Origin: an uncultured Bacteroidales bacterium
GTDB lineage: Bacteria; Bacteroidota; Bacteroidia; Bacteroidales; Paludibacteraceae
Length of the DNA: 64,000 bases
Direction: 5' to 3'
NCBI GenBank assembly: GCA_946403315.1
Contig: CAMIZK010000002.1
Coordinates: forward strand, 1-64,000
A program made the translations under genes and the position numbers. The first letter of the stretch is position 1. Every line of letters begins with the position of its first letter. Shown here one piece after another: positions 12,709-40,390 of the stretch. The notes beneath the pieces were generated by a model. That model did no database searches and had not been told where the DNA came from. It saw only the letters and a program-made list of their open reading frames with translations.

Positions 12709-12874
12709 ATAGGTACAAATTAAAAGTTCAGCGTGATCATTTTCGAATCACGCTGCAAAGGTACTACATTTATTTCATATACTGAAATCGTCCAGAACTT
12801 TGTTAAAATTGCAAAGTGTAGTTTGCAAAATCAAATAAGTCAAAGACTTAGTGCCCGCGTAGGGATTGGAAGGG

Positions 12875-13522
12875 CTATAGTGTGGGGTAGCAATGCGTAA
12901 CTTGTGAACCCCTGCAAAGCCGACGCTCGCAGGGTGTAGATGTCTGCCGGTACAGCAAAGGAATGTGCTCCACATCGGAAGGAGCGGTAGAGTGCTCCCA
13001 GTTGGCAAAGAGTATTTCTTTGCTTGTGCCATCGGCAGTAGCAGACGTGAAACGGCAGTTGCAGGCTTCCTTGCGGAGCATGGTGGTGATGCGTGTGCCA
13101 TCCTTGGAAAGAATGATGAGCGTGACACAGAAGCCGAAGTGTTTGAAATCGAGGCAAGCGCCGAGGAAATAATCCGCCATGTTGTTCTCAAAGAAGAAAT
13201 CGGTGATTTGCTTCTTGACATCGGCGGTACACTCGCAGGTATCGTACTGGAGACCTTGACCGTAGCACACTTCGGCGTTCCACTGTTGGCAGGTGGTCAG
13301 GGTCTCGTCGGCTTCAATCTTCTTGAGGACGTTGTAGGGCATGAGGCTGTCCGCTCCCCAAGGGATGTACTGGGTATGGTCATCCAGCTGGATAGGCGAA
13401 ATCTCGCCATCCTCTTTGAAGAGTGTGGTGGTGTCGGTGACAAAGATTGCCCGGGCTTTGAGTTGTGGTATATCTACCACGGAGTCAAAAATAAAATCCA
13501 TATCTTGCAAATTTTGCTGCAA
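12875..13522 (-). pseudogene. Truncated prophage portal-like protein remnant
   Basis: QYIPWGADSLMPYNVLKKIEADETLTTCQQWNAEVCYGQGLQY resembles portal N-termini of Bacteroidales prophages; ORF is short and ends abruptly, possible frameshift continuation in ORF 12775..13221. Confidence 0.5.
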
Positions 13523-13636
13523 AGATATGAATTTATGCGCGGGCGTGAAAAGACACAGTCAGACACAGGAACAGCAGAGGACTAGGTAGTCTGGTGCAGC
13601 GCGGTAATCTTTCACGTGACGTCCCACATAGTTCAA

Positions 13637-14512
13637 TCAAACATATATCACATATACATTCTCTTTATCTAATTCTGCAGGAGAGGTGTAGAGTTTGACG
13701 TCCTCCCTTTTCTTGATGATTTTCTCCATACTTTCTTGTGCATGCTCACAATCGAGAATAACCATAAATTTATAATAATCAGCAATATCTTTGATAGGCT
13801 GCTTTTTTTTCTTCCCATCTAACAGATGCTCAATATCTTTAATGATTCCTCTTTCCTGTGCCGCACCAAATGACGTTTCGTTAACGGGGATATTGCATTT
13901 TACTTCAGCAATGATTTTCTTGTCTCCAACGTACTTCACATCATATCCATTAGCATTGGCATGTTGCTTGTCTACTATTTTTCCTATACCAACTTTTTCT
14001 TTACTATCGATGAATCCGTCTTGATAGAGTTTTAGCACAAACGAATCCGTTGCACGCAATGTAATCATATTATTGATGCAACTGAGCAGTTTCTTAAGGT
14101 CAATCAATTGTTCATTAGATAGTTTAGAATATAGGTCTTCTATTCCTAATTGCGCAAAGAATTGATTGAACTGCTCTTTCAAGTCCTTTTCTCTATTATA
14201 TTCCAGAGATGCCAGAATGGATTGACGCACAATAGGTGTAGCAAACGAGATGAAGGGAGTATCCTCTGTCGGCTCATATTTCTCTGCCGCATTAGCAAGT
14301 CCTACTCTTCCGGCATTTATTAGTTCATCTAGAGAAAGTCCTTTATCCTGGTATTGTGCAGCCAACGAAACTACAAAACGCATATTGGCACGCACGAGTT
14401 GTTCTAATGCGGTTCCATCGTTATTATGGACACGATTGATGAGTTCTTTCTCTTCCTGCTTAGACAAAAGAGGTTCATTCCCTATCTCTTGAAGGATATT
14501 ATCTATATTCAT
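13637..14512 (-). CDS. Sigma-70 region 1.2-2 domain fused to a PD-(D/E)XK nuclease-like domain
   Basis: N-term ILQEIGNEPLLSKQEEKELINRVHNNDGTALEQLVRANMRFVVSLAAQYQDKGLSLDELINAGRVGLANAAEKYEP...FISFATPIVRQSILASL; C-term NGYDVKYVGDKKIIAEVKCNIPV...FGAAQERGIIKDIEHLL. Confidence 0.8.
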   Translation of the reverse strand: MNIDNILQEIGNEPLLSKQEEKELINRVHNNDGTALEQLVRANMRFVVSLAAQYQDKGLSLDELINAGRVGLANAAEKYEPTEDTPFISFATPIVRQSILASLEYNREKDLKEQFNQFFAQLGIEDLYSKLSNEQLIDLKKLLSCINNMITLRATDSFVLKLYQDGFIDSKEKVGIGKIVDKQHANANGYDVKYVGDKKIIAEVKCNIPVNETSFGAAQERGIIKDIEHLLDGKKKKQPIKDIADYYKFMVILDCEHAQESMEKIIKKREDVKLYTSPAELDKENVYVIYV

Positions 14513-15102
14513 AATTTAATGCCAAATTCGTTTTCTAATTCTTTCCACGAACGATCCATGTGCTCACCGAGGAATTGTTTGTATTGTTCATCCAAATTGC
14601 CTACCCAAGTGAAGTTGTCTGCTGGATTGTAGATTGCTTTCATCTTCTCAACATTCTTCGAAGTCCATGTGATAAATACTGAGCAATCTTCCTGCGTGTC
14701 CTTTAAGGTATTAAACAACAAGTTGCGCACATATAGCGGGTTGTCGTGGATCGAATCTTCCATGGGAATTTCGGTAATGTTTTCAACCACAATAATAGGT
14801 CTTGGAGCTAATGGCGATATCTCAATGGAATCGAGCCATCCTTTAGCGTCTCCTTTGCAGAGTTTAGCGCAATCAATGTGGTAGATAGGTCTGTTTAGAT
14901 GCTCCTGAAGCGAGTTGGTAAAGCACTCTTTCTTCTTCGTCATCTCACGCAGTTTCTTTGTTAAATGTGCCGCTTCAACGACCATTAGATGTCCCCGAAG
15001 TCCCATCGCATAAAATAGCTCTTCCAATACTTGCTCTTTCACATATGCGTCCATTTCTTTGAAACGGTCCCGAGCAATTGTTGTGTCATTGTCTTGTATC
15101 AT
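14509..15102 (-). CDS. Degenerate AAA+-like protein, operon partner of the sigma/nuclease fusion
   Basis: 4-bp start/stop overlap with the downstream gene; GHLMVVEAAHLTKKLREM...LNRPIYHIDCAKL, RPIIVVENITEIP, DCSVFITWTSKNVEKM follow the order Walker A position/strand 2/Walker B/sensor 1 but lack canonical GxxxxGKT and DE. Confidence 0.55.
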   Translation of the reverse strand: MIQDNDTTIARDRFKEMDAYVKEQVLEELFYAMGLRGHLMVVEAAHLTKKLREMTKKKECFTNSLQEHLNRPIYHIDCAKLCKGDAKGWLDSIEISPLAPRPIIVVENITEIPMEDSIHDNPLYVRNLLFNTLKDTQEDCSVFITWTSKNVEKMKAIYNPADNFTWVGNLDEQYKQFLGEHMDRSWKELENEFGIKL

Positions 15103-15243
15103 AACCCTATATGTTTATAATTACAACTCTATATAGAAAGTTTTTCAAAATCTTTAGTGTTTTTCATGTCTTTTTGTAGAGTATAGCGGACTCGAAAGTA
15201 AAAAAATCAATGAACTAATACTCCAAACTAATACTTTGCGCTG

Positions 15244-15275
15244 CAAAATTACTCAAAAAATTTGGATTACGCAAA
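15244..15275 (-). promoter_or_regulatory. Bacteroidetes housekeeping promoter for the 15102-13637 operon
   Basis: Minus strand TTTG-N20-TAATTTTG (plus caaaatta 15244-15251, caaa 15272-15275). Confidence 0.7.
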
Positions 15276-15353
15276 TTTTTTTGGCATGAAATGCAAATGA
15301 AATGAATTTTGCAAGCGAAAATGAAACGGAAAAGCAAGGCAAAATAAAAAAAA

Positions 15354-15379
15354 CCTCCCAAGTTTTGAGGCTTGGGAGG
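15354..15379 (-). terminator. Rho-independent terminator-like hairpin
   Basis: CCTCCCAAG/CTTGGGAGG perfect 9-bp stem with 8-nt loop, followed on the minus strand by a T-rich tract (plus aaaataaaaaaaa to its left). Confidence 0.65.
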
Positions 15380-15799
15380 GGGCATGTGGGACCTTGCTGA
15401 AAGTTTGCCAACTTCATTATATCACATACAAAAAGTTTGCCGAGGTGCTATAAGAATACCTCCAGACCGTTGATTTTCGAGATGCAGACATCGCGGACAG
15501 TGCAGATTTCTTTAATCGGGTGCAAAGGTACGAAAAATATTTGATATATGCAAATATTGGTGGGATTTTTTGCAGAAATCATCGGATAACATCCGATACA
15601 ATGAACGACGAAGAAAGCCCGATTCAATCGGGCACAAAAGAAGAAAGACATTATTGCCGATACAAAGCGAATTGTGCCGATTGTTATGGGAGTTTGAAAT
15701 TAACAGGCAAGGCGTATCTCACATCTAAGTAGCACGATTTCGCTTTGCATTCCCATTTCGGCATAGAGCGAATTACGCGGATTGAATTTTTGTGAAGAT

Positions 15800-37442: not shown

Positions 37443-37760
37443 ATGTCAAAGAGTACTATTGCTACCCGTTTACCTCGCAGAGCAGAGAAAAACCTGCAGA
37501 TTGTAGGGGAACAAATTCGTCTGGCGCGATTGCGCCGGGACTTGAGCATTGCGCAGATTGCAGAAAGAGCGTCTTGCAGTGAGTTAACGGTGATGCGTGT
37601 GGAACGCGGTGTCTCAACAGTAGCGATCGGCATCTATCTGCGTATCCTGTTTGCGCTGGGTTTGGACGAGAGTATTCTGTATTTGGCCAAAGATGATGAG
37701 ATGGGTCGCACCTTACAAGATTTAGACCTTAAACACCGCCAAAGAGCATCAAAGAAATGA
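37443..37760 (+). CDS. HipB-like HTH antitoxin
   Basis: GEQIRLARLRRDLSIAQIAERASCSELTVMRVERGVSTVAIGIYLRILFALGL; 4-bp overlap with hipA-like gene. Confidence 0.85.
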   Translation: MSKSTIATRLPRRAEKNLQIVGEQIRLARLRRDLSIAQIAERASCSELTVMRVERGVSTVAIGIYLRILFALGLDESILYLAKDDEMGRTLQDLDLKHRQRASKK

Positions 37761-38986
37761 AGTTGATACAAATAGATATGGACGCTACGTGTTTCCCGCA
37801 GGCTGAGCCGGTGGGGACATTGGGCTATGATATGATTCGCGGCAATGCCGCGTACCAATGGACGTTTGATCCGCAGTGGTTGCAAAAGCACAAACATATC
37901 AAACTGAGTGGAGACCTGCAAAACGCCGGAGGACCGCAATACGGTTCAGATCGGCTATTCGGTTTTCTGCAAGATGCCATGCCGGATCGGTGGGGAAGGC
38001 GGTTAATCGATAAACGGGAACGTTTATTGGCAGCGCAAGAAGGACGAGCGGTTCGGCATCTGACGGACATCGATTATCTGACGCAGATTGATGACACCAC
38101 GCGTATGGGCGCATTTCGCTTGCGTGCAGGTGAAAATAGATTAGGTGTCGATTATGCAGACACGCCCGTTCCGCCGTTAACGCATCTGCGTCAGTTTGTG
38201 GATATGGCGCAAGACTATGAACGGCAAGACGAGCAAGGAGGTGCCATTCGGGAAGAATGGTTACTGAACTTATACAAACAAGGTTCATCCTTAGGCGGAG
38301 CGCGACCTAAAGCGAATGTGCGTGATACGGACGGTTCTCTTTGGATTGCCAAGATCCCATCCATCAACGACGATTATGATGTTGCTTTATGGGAATTCTG
38401 GGCGCATAAGATGGCACATCTGGCAGGCATCGAAGTGCCGGAAATGAAGTTATTAACCTTACCGGGACAGAAATACCACACTTTATTGTCCAAGCGCTTT
38501 GACAGAGACGGTCAACAACGGATCCATTTCGCGTCTGCGATGACCCTCTGCGGCCTGCAAGACGGCGCCGATGCAACGTCCGGCCACGGTTATCTGGATA
38601 TTGTAGATACGATTATCGGAAACAGCGGTTTTGTGAATCCGCAGGAAGCATTGGAGCAGTTGTACCGGCGAGTAGCTTTCTCGGTAGCCATCCATAATCA
38701 CGATGATCATTTCCGCAATCATGGTTTCTTGCTGACCGAAAAAGGATGGGTCTGGTCGCCGGCCTATGACCTTAACCCGTCAGATATCCGGACGCAGAGT
38801 CTGCTTATCTCCCGCGACACGAATGAGTCTTCCTTGGAAGCCCTATTAGCCGCAGCCGGAGATTATATGCTGAGTACTAAGCAGGCGCAACAAATCATTA
38901 ACGAGGTATCTGCGGCCATGCAGCAAGCAATCCGTCTTGCCCGCCAATGCGCCATCTCCGATCAGGAAATGAAACGCTTTTTTTGA
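37757..38986 (+). CDS. HipA-like kinase toxin
   Basis: LQDAMPDRWGRRLIDKRE; SSLGGARPKANVRDTDGSLWIAKIPS; NHDDHFRNHGFLL; WVWSPAYDLNPS. Confidence 0.9.
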   Translation: MKLIQIDMDATCFPQAEPVGTLGYDMIRGNAAYQWTFDPQWLQKHKHIKLSGDLQNAGGPQYGSDRLFGFLQDAMPDRWGRRLIDKRERLLAAQEGRAVRHLTDIDYLTQIDDTTRMGAFRLRAGENRLGVDYADTPVPPLTHLRQFVDMAQDYERQDEQGGAIREEWLLNLYKQGSSLGGARPKANVRDTDGSLWIAKIPSINDDYDVALWEFWAHKMAHLAGIEVPEMKLLTLPGQKYHTLLSKRFDRDGQQRIHFASAMTLCGLQDGADATSGHGYLDIVDTIIGNSGFVNPQEALEQLYRRVAFSVAIHNHDDHFRNHGFLLTEKGWVWSPAYDLNPSDIRTQSLLISRDTNESSLEALLAAAGDYMLSTKQAQQIINEVSAAMQQAIRLARQCAISDQEMKRFF

Positions 38987-39055: not shown

Positions 39056-39163
39056 CCGGTAACCCATTCGCCATTAGCTATTCGCCCTTTCGCCTTTAGC
39101 ACGCTTCCGCGCACGGAAAATAAGGTACGCAAGCGCGCAGAGCATCAGCGGCAGCACCGCGTC
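39056..39163. repeat. 108-bp direct repeat, copy A
   Basis: 104/108 identical by eye to 40421-40528; contains part of the stop codon of the DUF1016-type gene. Confidence 0.9.
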
Positions 39164-40334
39164 ATTTATCCAAGAACTCCACGAACTCCTCCAAACTGCG
39201 TTGAATAACGCTGCCGACCTTTAATTGCTCCTCGTATTTAGACACCATCGTTGGGCTAATGCTCCGATTTAGCGCATAGCGTACCACCTCAGGGTTTGCG
39301 TCCTTGCACATTAAGATACCAATGCTCGGATTTTCATTACTGCGTTTCTCGTTTTGATCCAATGCCTCTAAGTAGAACTCCAATTGCCCCAAATCACGTG
39401 GATCAAAGGTCGTGGTCTTCAGTTCAATAGCCACAAGGCACTGCAAGGCACGATGGTAGAACAACAAATCGCAGCGGAAGTTTTGTCCGCCAACCTCAAG
39501 CGTATGTTCCTGATCCACAAAGAGAAAATCCTTACCCATCTCCAGGATAAACTCCTTCATATGCGACACTATCTCATTACGCAACTTCGACTCCTTGTAT
39601 CTTTGAGGCAGGCCCAAGAACTCTAAGATGGATTTATCTTTGAGCAACACTTCCGCTTGCGGATAGGTCTCTTTCAGGATAGCGGACTGCATCTTCTTAT
39701 CGCTCAGCACACGCGAGTAGGCATCCGATTTGATGGCGCGCTCGAGTTCGCGTTTCTTCAAATGCTCATGTTCTGCGTAGAGAATATAGAAGATATACTG
39801 ATCTACAAGTTCACATGCATTTAAGATAATAATATGATTCGTCCAAGTCGTCCTTAATAAGAACTCGGGAATTTGTGTCACCGCTGGTGATACAATTACA
39901 TTGTATCCATTTTGTATCAATGGCGTTGATACAATTTGTCTCACCATTGGTGATACAATTTGTGCCGCTTCCGCTGGCACAATTTCATCAGCTGGATTTG
40001 GCAATAATTTTAACGACATGGCACGTTCAATAAACGGAGCTGATGAGTAGGTGTCATAGAACTTAACCATTCTATAGATATTCATCCTACTCCATCCCTT
40101 TAAAGTCGGGTTTTGCGTATGGATATATTCCGCCAGTTGTTGCACCACTTTTGCTCCCCACGCGGCATTCTTTATCTTATCGGACACATACGCACCAACT
40201 TGCCATGCCGTCAGCACAGATGCATGGTTAATTACTTGTATCGCTTGCGAACGGTTTTGCTCAATGATCTGCACAACCTTAGCAAAATCCTGCGAATATT
40301 CGCTACTTGCTATATGTGCTACTTGCTTATCCAT
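39162..40334 (-). CDS. DUF1016 / PDDEXK nuclease domain-containing protein (YhcG-type)
   Basis: VLTAWQVGAYVSDKI...WGAKVVQQLAEYI; FDLLFYHRALQCLVAIELKTTTFDPRDLGQLEFYLEALD nuclease motif (as RCDLLFYHRALQCLVAIELKT). ORF-track start 40361 precedes the predicted transcription start. Confidence 0.9.
   Translation of the reverse strand: MDKQVAHIASSEYSQDFAKVVQIIEQNRSQAIQVINHASVLTAWQVGAYVSDKIKNAAWGAKVVQQLAEYIHTQNPTLKGWSRMNIYRMVKFYDTYSSAPFIERAMSLKLLPNPADEIVPAEAAQIVSPMVRQIVSTPLIQNGYNVIVSPAVTQIPEFLLRTTWTNHIIILNACELVDQYIFYILYAEHEHLKKRELERAIKSDAYSRVLSDKKMQSAILKETYPQAEVLLKDKSILEFLGLPQRYKESKLRNEIVSHMKEFILEMGKDFLFVDQEHTLEVGGQNFRCDLLFYHRALQCLVAIELKTTTFDPRDLGQLEFYLEALDQNEKRSNENPSIGILMCKDANPEVVRYALNRSISPTMVSKYEEQLKVGSVIQRSLEEFVEFLDK
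39873..39982 (-). repeat. Palindromic 23-bp units with 24-bp period inside the DUF1016-type gene
   Basis: Units at 39873-39895, 39912-39934, 39936-39958, 39960-39982, all of form TTGTvTCAcc-n-ggTGATACAA or variants. Confidence 0.85.
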
Positions 40335-40358
40335 CATGTTGTTTATCAAAATTTGGTG

Positions 40359-40390
40359 CAAAGATACAACAAAAAATCGACATACACAAG
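40359..40390 (-). promoter_or_regulatory. Promoter for the DUF1016-type gene
   Basis: Minus CTTG-N20-TATCTTTG (plus caaagata 40359-40366, caag 40387-40390). Confidence 0.6.

Follow-up and report, generated by a model that had tools for sequence, protein, structure and literature searches.

A 291-residue open reading frame in the window (the whole 64,000-nucleotide stretch of DNA analysed here) is an in-frame union of two parts carried as phage cargo: a truncated sigma-70-like domain, here called mini-sigma, and a PD-(D/E)XK-like module. Our best reading, to which we give a probability of roughly 0.4, is that the protein would be no promoter-specific sigma factor but a sigma-2-like docking or bait domain on a nuclease-like effector, belonging to an accessory module of a prophage. 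The features concerned are as follows.

13637-14512 (-): fusion ORF, 291 aa
14204..14512 (-): mini-sigma domain, residues 1-103 of the fusion, from the Pfam r2/r1.2 matches, alignment to the host's own RpoD and the phage counterpart
14204..14254 (-): region 2.3 segment FISFATPIVRQSILASL, residues 87-103, W433W434 replaced by P I, from alignment to the host's own RpoD
13637..14206 (-): PD-(D/E)XK-like module (NxNG[YF]D...AEVKCNxP), residues ~103-291, from its motif, relatives, AlphaFold model and dN/dS
14509..15102 (-): 197-aa gene upstream of the fusion, with an ATGA overlap at the sigma start
15244..15275 (-): Bacteroidetes-type promoter-like site, TTTG-N20-TAATTTTG, ahead of the cassette, a pattern match
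15346..15379 (-): intrinsic-terminator-like hairpin, CCTCCCAAG..CTTGGGAGG-T8, between the preceding phage gene and the cassette promoter
15454..15513 (-): 60-bp stub of a phage gene (101/76 aa), the upstream flank of the cargo slot
12960..13558 (-): ~600-bp stub, the remaining 5' part of the portal gene of the phage, the downstream flank of the cargo slot

Pfam places Sigma70_r2 at residues 39-103 of the 291-aa ORF (E=1.3e-10) and Sigma70_r1_2 at residues 7-24 (E=1.5e-4), and at these E values the sigma matches are not due to chance. The mini-sigma spans sigma-70 regions 1.2-2.3 and the start of 2.4, and it aligns end to end with regions 1.2 and 2.1-2.3 of the group 1 housekeeping sigma (sigma-70/RpoD) of Bacteroidales type. 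It is 45-52% identical to the RpoD of its host (L002 1081-2016; aligned stretch FISYAVWWIRQSILQAL), with 45% over residues 2-133. Unlike RpoD, the mini-sigma has only ~103-106 residues, carries PI in place of WW and changes at D403 and N409, and ends within region 2.4 with no sigma-3 or sigma-4. The sigma-4 (-35/flap-binding) domain is absent from both known forms: the fusion runs on into the nuclease-like C-terminal domain, an addition relative to RpoD, and the phage form ends at 106 aa. A search of INPHARED with the mini-sigma also returned phage matches.

Region 2.3 reads FISFATPIVRQSIL in the fusion ORF and FISYAVWWIRQSIL in the host's own RpoD, and in this alignment PI takes the place of the WW pair (E. 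coli W433/W434). The preliminary description of this DNA had reported such a replacement within 14170-14300, and the motif does lie inside that span, at 14254-14204 (-). Its further remark that the flanking residues are retained holds for some of them; the sigma consensus has G424, K426, Y430 and V432 where the mini-sigma has D, P, F and T, respectively. A set of 109 full sigmas, made up of RpoD proteins from the genus and IMG/VR phage sigmas, has 40 columns with a conservation of >=85%; the mini-sigma keeps 23 of these and has changed at 17. In this set W434 is invariant and W433 92% conserved. Eighty IMG/VR sigma relatives, picked as candidates by conserved region-2 patterns and biased to RpoD-like sigmas, show WW (66), YW (6), AW (4), HW (2), FW (1) or PI (1) at the site. 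The sole PI belongs to the phage form of the mini-sigma, which is also the only complete protein among the 80 to end after region 2. At one case in 80, loss of both tryptophans is exceptional among group-1-like sigmas, and it is a property of the mini-sigma, common to the unfused phage allele. Homologs of the fusion that retain WW, which would have spoken against the preliminary description, were not found; the only close homolog (phage L031) has PI.

Loss of the tryptophans alone is not diagnostic of lost promoter opening: sigma-F, FliA and variants of sigma-32 are functional although they lack the pair. Sigma-F (PDB 1l0o_C) reads FSTYAVPMIIGEI in region 2.3, with P plus an aliphatic residue at the WW positions (VPMI) like the PI of the mini-sigma, and E. 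coli FliA reads FTTYAVQRIRGAM (VQRI at the WW site). Both are group 3 sigmas of full length, with sigma-3/4, whereas the mini-sigma is RpoD-like in sequence. W433 has been reviewed as the wedge for -11A in sigma-70 (PMC4496690), and the wedge pairs of sigma-32 rank WW > HW > QR in opening and transcription, all of them active and HW and QR slower (PMC10216364). The WW pair is a group-1 feature and no general need for promoter opening. The earlier argument from WW loss to lost opening is weak for this reason, and a sigma decoy argued from WW loss alone was rejected on the same grounds; the case corrects the reading of WW loss as a sign that promoter opening has been lost.

Region 2.2 of the mini-sigma is altered as well, with D403E and N409R at positions invariant in the 109 sigmas and E407A, M413A, K414N and K392A at nearly invariant ones. 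The positions concerned touch the beta-prime clamp helices in sigma-70. With D403, N409, E407, M413, K414 and K392 all replaced, the earlier claim that core RNA polymerase binding is kept finds no support. FliA, a working sigma, nevertheless has A407 and N414 as the mini-sigma does, so the mini-sigma may still bind core.

The same cassette is present unfused (L031) on IMG/VR contig IMGVR_UViG_3300021318_000156, a 43.5-kb temperate phage with an integrase at one end. There it consists of the 197-aa gene, a stand-alone 106-aa mini-sigma with PI and the C-terminus ...FISFATPILRQTILAAISKV, and a protein of 332 aa that has the nuclease-like module at its C-terminal end. The mini-sigma domain of the window is 95% identical to the 106-aa protein. 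The 332-aa protein has a 143-aa N-terminal part (L031:5572-6000), missing in the window and without a Pfam match, followed by a module 90% identical to that of the window. Altogether, 450 bp (150 codons) present across the two phage ORFs are absent from the window, and because this difference is in frame, the mini-sigma and the nuclease-like domain form one ORF.

Window and phage are nearly identical over the 197-aa gene, sigma codons 1-90 (no silent change) and the last 67 codons (no change); in codons 1-90 the two alleles differ too little to give a measure of selection on the mini-sigma. A diverged tract, codons 91-224, straddles the junction in frame, with a dS of 0.35 on the sigma side (12 codons only) and 0.57 on the nuclease side. 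Because this tract spans the junction between nearly identical outer parts, a simple fresh deletion in the window copy is weakened as the maker of the fusion and is probably not, alone, its origin. Recombination with a diverged, already fused donor would fit better, although the left side of the tract is short. An assembly misjoin may have made the fusion, but no long word is common to the phage sequences on the two sides of the junction, and each of them differs from the window. The fusion is a singleton: no other sigma-nuclease fusion was found in 178 genus genomes, a GTDB scan or IMG/VR, where the genome-contig and viral scans were pattern based and miss distant relatives. The junction pattern had no match in IMG/VR, and the full-length fusion protein gave no confirmed match in the scan of genome contigs and one marginal match only in the order-level scan. 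A literature search for fusions of a sigma with a nuclease, or for truncated sigmas of Bacteroides phages, returned nothing usable.

The C-terminal module occurs elsewhere alone or with other N-terminal parts, and relatives without a sigma domain are found at 19 Bacteroidales loci, in proteins of ~190-215 aa. The motifs N-x-NG-x-D and AE-x-KCN-x-P are common to 20 module sequences, with D, E and K invariant (the D...ExK pattern; D191, E203 and K205 in the numbering of the fusion). AlphaFold, applied to the nuclease-like domain only, gave a model with a pLDDT of 91 and a pTM of 0.84, in which the D lies ahead of a short strand (92-94) and ExK in strand 100-105, followed by a helix and a further strand. 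Motif and model together give the arrangement by which the PD-(D/E)XK superfamily is recognized, D-x(n)-(D/E)-x-K on adjacent strands. Foldseek of the module against the PDB found no significant relative (none below E=0.001, best E 0.17); the weak matches include FokI, HamA, Cdn1 and LmuA. The D...ExK motif and the alpha-beta order are like those of FokI and of the defence PD-(D/E)XK nucleases HamA, Cdn1 and LmuA, but the module has no significant fold or sequence match to any of these. It has no significant relative in BFVD and no match in INPHARED phages or PLSDB plasmids, and one family member matches NOV_C weakly. The label is kept at PD-(D/E)XK-like because D...ExK and the predicted topology fit, yet no significant structural relative was found; nuclease activity is putative. 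With a dN/dS of 0.15 against the phage copy, at a dS of 0.57, the module is under purifying selection.

Some surroundings of the module at other loci were also recorded. A homologue of the 197-aa protein is found near it in L014/G187. At L030:390-1448 the N-terminal part ahead of the module is another one, which looks GNAT-like by eye and has no Pfam match. In L012, L016, L021 and L024 the module lies in islands, its neighbours being TerB, protein kinase, GIY-YIG, OmpA-domain and small repeated unknown proteins.

The 197-aa protein is 99% identical in phage L031, and its family shows conserved DAxGWL, VENITE, TW and GN. It has no relative in the PDB or Pfam, and its structure model is poor (pLDDT 42); a P-loop-less AAA-like core was a mere impression and is not claimed. 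The promoter pattern ahead of the cassette has 15 matches in the 64-kb window, counting both strands, so the site is taken as supportive only.

The two stubs are what remains of the genes that border the cargo slot in the phage, where the intact portal gene matches the portal profile. The rest of the tested 16-kb phage stretch is absent from the genome assembly (a draft, 74% complete), and the cassette is a leftover at a site from which the rest of the temperate phage, one with known relatives, has disappeared. Short matches to another part of the phage contig at window positions 12723-12961 (46 bp at 96% and 70 bp at 83%) suggest an additional, scrambled remnant.

The capsid family of the L031 phage is present at 80 IMG/VR loci, nine of which also contain the portal gene, two of these from the L031 contig. 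The slot lies between the 76/101-aa ORF and the portal gene. Two loci with a 96% identical capsid, L094 and L095, have nothing in it, and compared with these the L031 slot is 2343 bp longer; other genes fill it in L096, L097 and L098. In L170 the slot carries, at 13618-15301, an AbiEii toxin (PF08843, E=1.5e-35) with a DUF6088 partner, and in L171 the region is rearranged. The mini-sigma, 197-aa and nuclease-like genes are absent from all seven other portal-reaching loci and occur, among the nine, on the L031 contig only. Because the slot is empty or otherwise filled in close relatives, the cassette is dispensable to the phage; together with the other occupants, this points to accessory cargo, possibly for defence. 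What L096-L098 carry in the slot varies: small proteins that look secreted, different from locus to locus, and, in L098 (15326-15949), a radical-SAM protein.

The end within region 2.4, the missing sigma-3/4 and the dispensable cargo slot make it plausible that the protein is no ordinary alternative sigma; the preliminary description had reached this view, for which WW loss is not the ground. Its suggestion of a "decoy or delivery module" is reasonable as a hypothesis. One allele has the mini-sigma and the nuclease-like protein as neighbours and the other has them as a single protein, which suggests a functional link between them. Under the docking or bait reading, the mini-sigma would not direct transcription and would offer a sigma-2-shaped docking or bait surface. 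Through this surface the nuclease-like effector would be placed at, or triggered by, the transcription machinery or, alternatively, a phage protein attacking sigma or RNA polymerase. The 197-aa gene might act in regulation or sensing, and the cassette would give the prophage an accessory means of defence or competition; the fusion would simply make permanent a partnership present as neighbouring phage genes. The unfused allele on a phage contig with an integrase, the dispensable slot, the cassette's own promoter-like site and terminator, the neighbouring of the two parts in one allele, the occurrence of the module elsewhere, the purifying selection on it, the diverged tract in frame across the junction, the lack of sigma-3/4, the lost wedge and the altered region 2.2 argue for this reading. 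Against it stand the singleton status of the fusion, a nuclease label drawn from motif and topology, the absence of silent changes in sigma codons 1-90, a 197-aa protein with no known relative and a poor model, and a defence search that matched the sigma part of MzaA only.

A defence system search of the cassette proteins (PADLOC) returned the sigma part of MzaA only. MzaA is an annotated anti-phage-associated protein of the MZA anti-phage system, and its sigma-70 region 2 matches the mini-sigma. The MzaA models, however, have ~700 positions, and the match is confined to the sigma part (residues 33-101) and does not extend to full-length MzaA; none of the scanned cassette proteins matched any other Mza gene.

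A more specific proposal appears unlikely: a phage-borne, sigma-guided nuclease with split and fused alleles, in which a sigma-2 domain incapable of transcription directs a nuclease to RNA polymerase or acts as bait for phage-encoded hijackers of sigma or RNA polymerase.

Many phages seize host transcription by binding to sigma or to the core polymerase. A small cargo gene copying the sigma-2 surface and tied to a nuclease-like protein would offer a direct means of sensing or punishing that takeover, and it is small enough for tests with purified proteins.

The chief rival to the docking or bait reading, which we regard as doubtful, takes the mini-sigma for a functionless captured rpoD fragment, fused incidentally when a decaying prophage suffered a deletion, with the nuclease-like (perhaps also the 197-aa) protein being what matters. 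The phage flanks reduced to stubs, the single occurrence of the fusion and the 17 of 40 conserved sigma positions lost are consistent with such a passenger. The mini-sigma is, however, an intact phage ORF with an ATGA overlap with the upstream gene, it has diverged to ~52% identity from RpoD without stop codons while keeping the other 23 conserved positions, and the fused frame is intact across the diverged tract.

Rather improbable is a gp55-like phage sigma that binds core through sigma-2 and, together with a partner, drives late transcription of the phage, the fusion being incidental. T4 gp55, a sigma-family member of very small size, is recognizably similar in domain 2 only, and it supports initiation (PMC2988020). 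The mini-sigma is likewise phage-borne with sigma similarity limited to domain 2, and sigmas without WW can open promoters. In contrast to gp55, which is a core gene and clamp-linked, the mini-sigma is dispensable cargo beside or fused to a nuclease-like module. A late sigma of this type would be expected in all relatives, whereas the mini-sigma gene occupies a cargo slot of variable content and close relatives of the phage lack it, unlike an essential late sigma. The mini-sigma also stops in region 2.4 and lacks a tail like the clamp-binding motif of gp55, and D403, N409 and E407 are changed.

The decoy first proposed, in which core RNA polymerase binding is kept and polymerase is titrated or poisoned with promoters left unopened, is very unlikely: the sigma-2 homology, the retention of most structural positions and the lost wedge pair speak for it, but core-binding positions are altered alongside that pair, WW loss by itself does not stop opening, and the nuclease-like half is left unexplained.

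Further ORFs were noted by eye. In the window, a HipA-like ORF lies at 37757-38986 and a DUF1016/YhcG-like nuclease ORF at 39162-40361. The phage contig that carries the unfused cassette encodes a restriction-modification-like protein of 920 aa (L091:5223-7985) and an AlbA/Schlafen-like protein (L091:8204-9697), which together may form a second cargo region.
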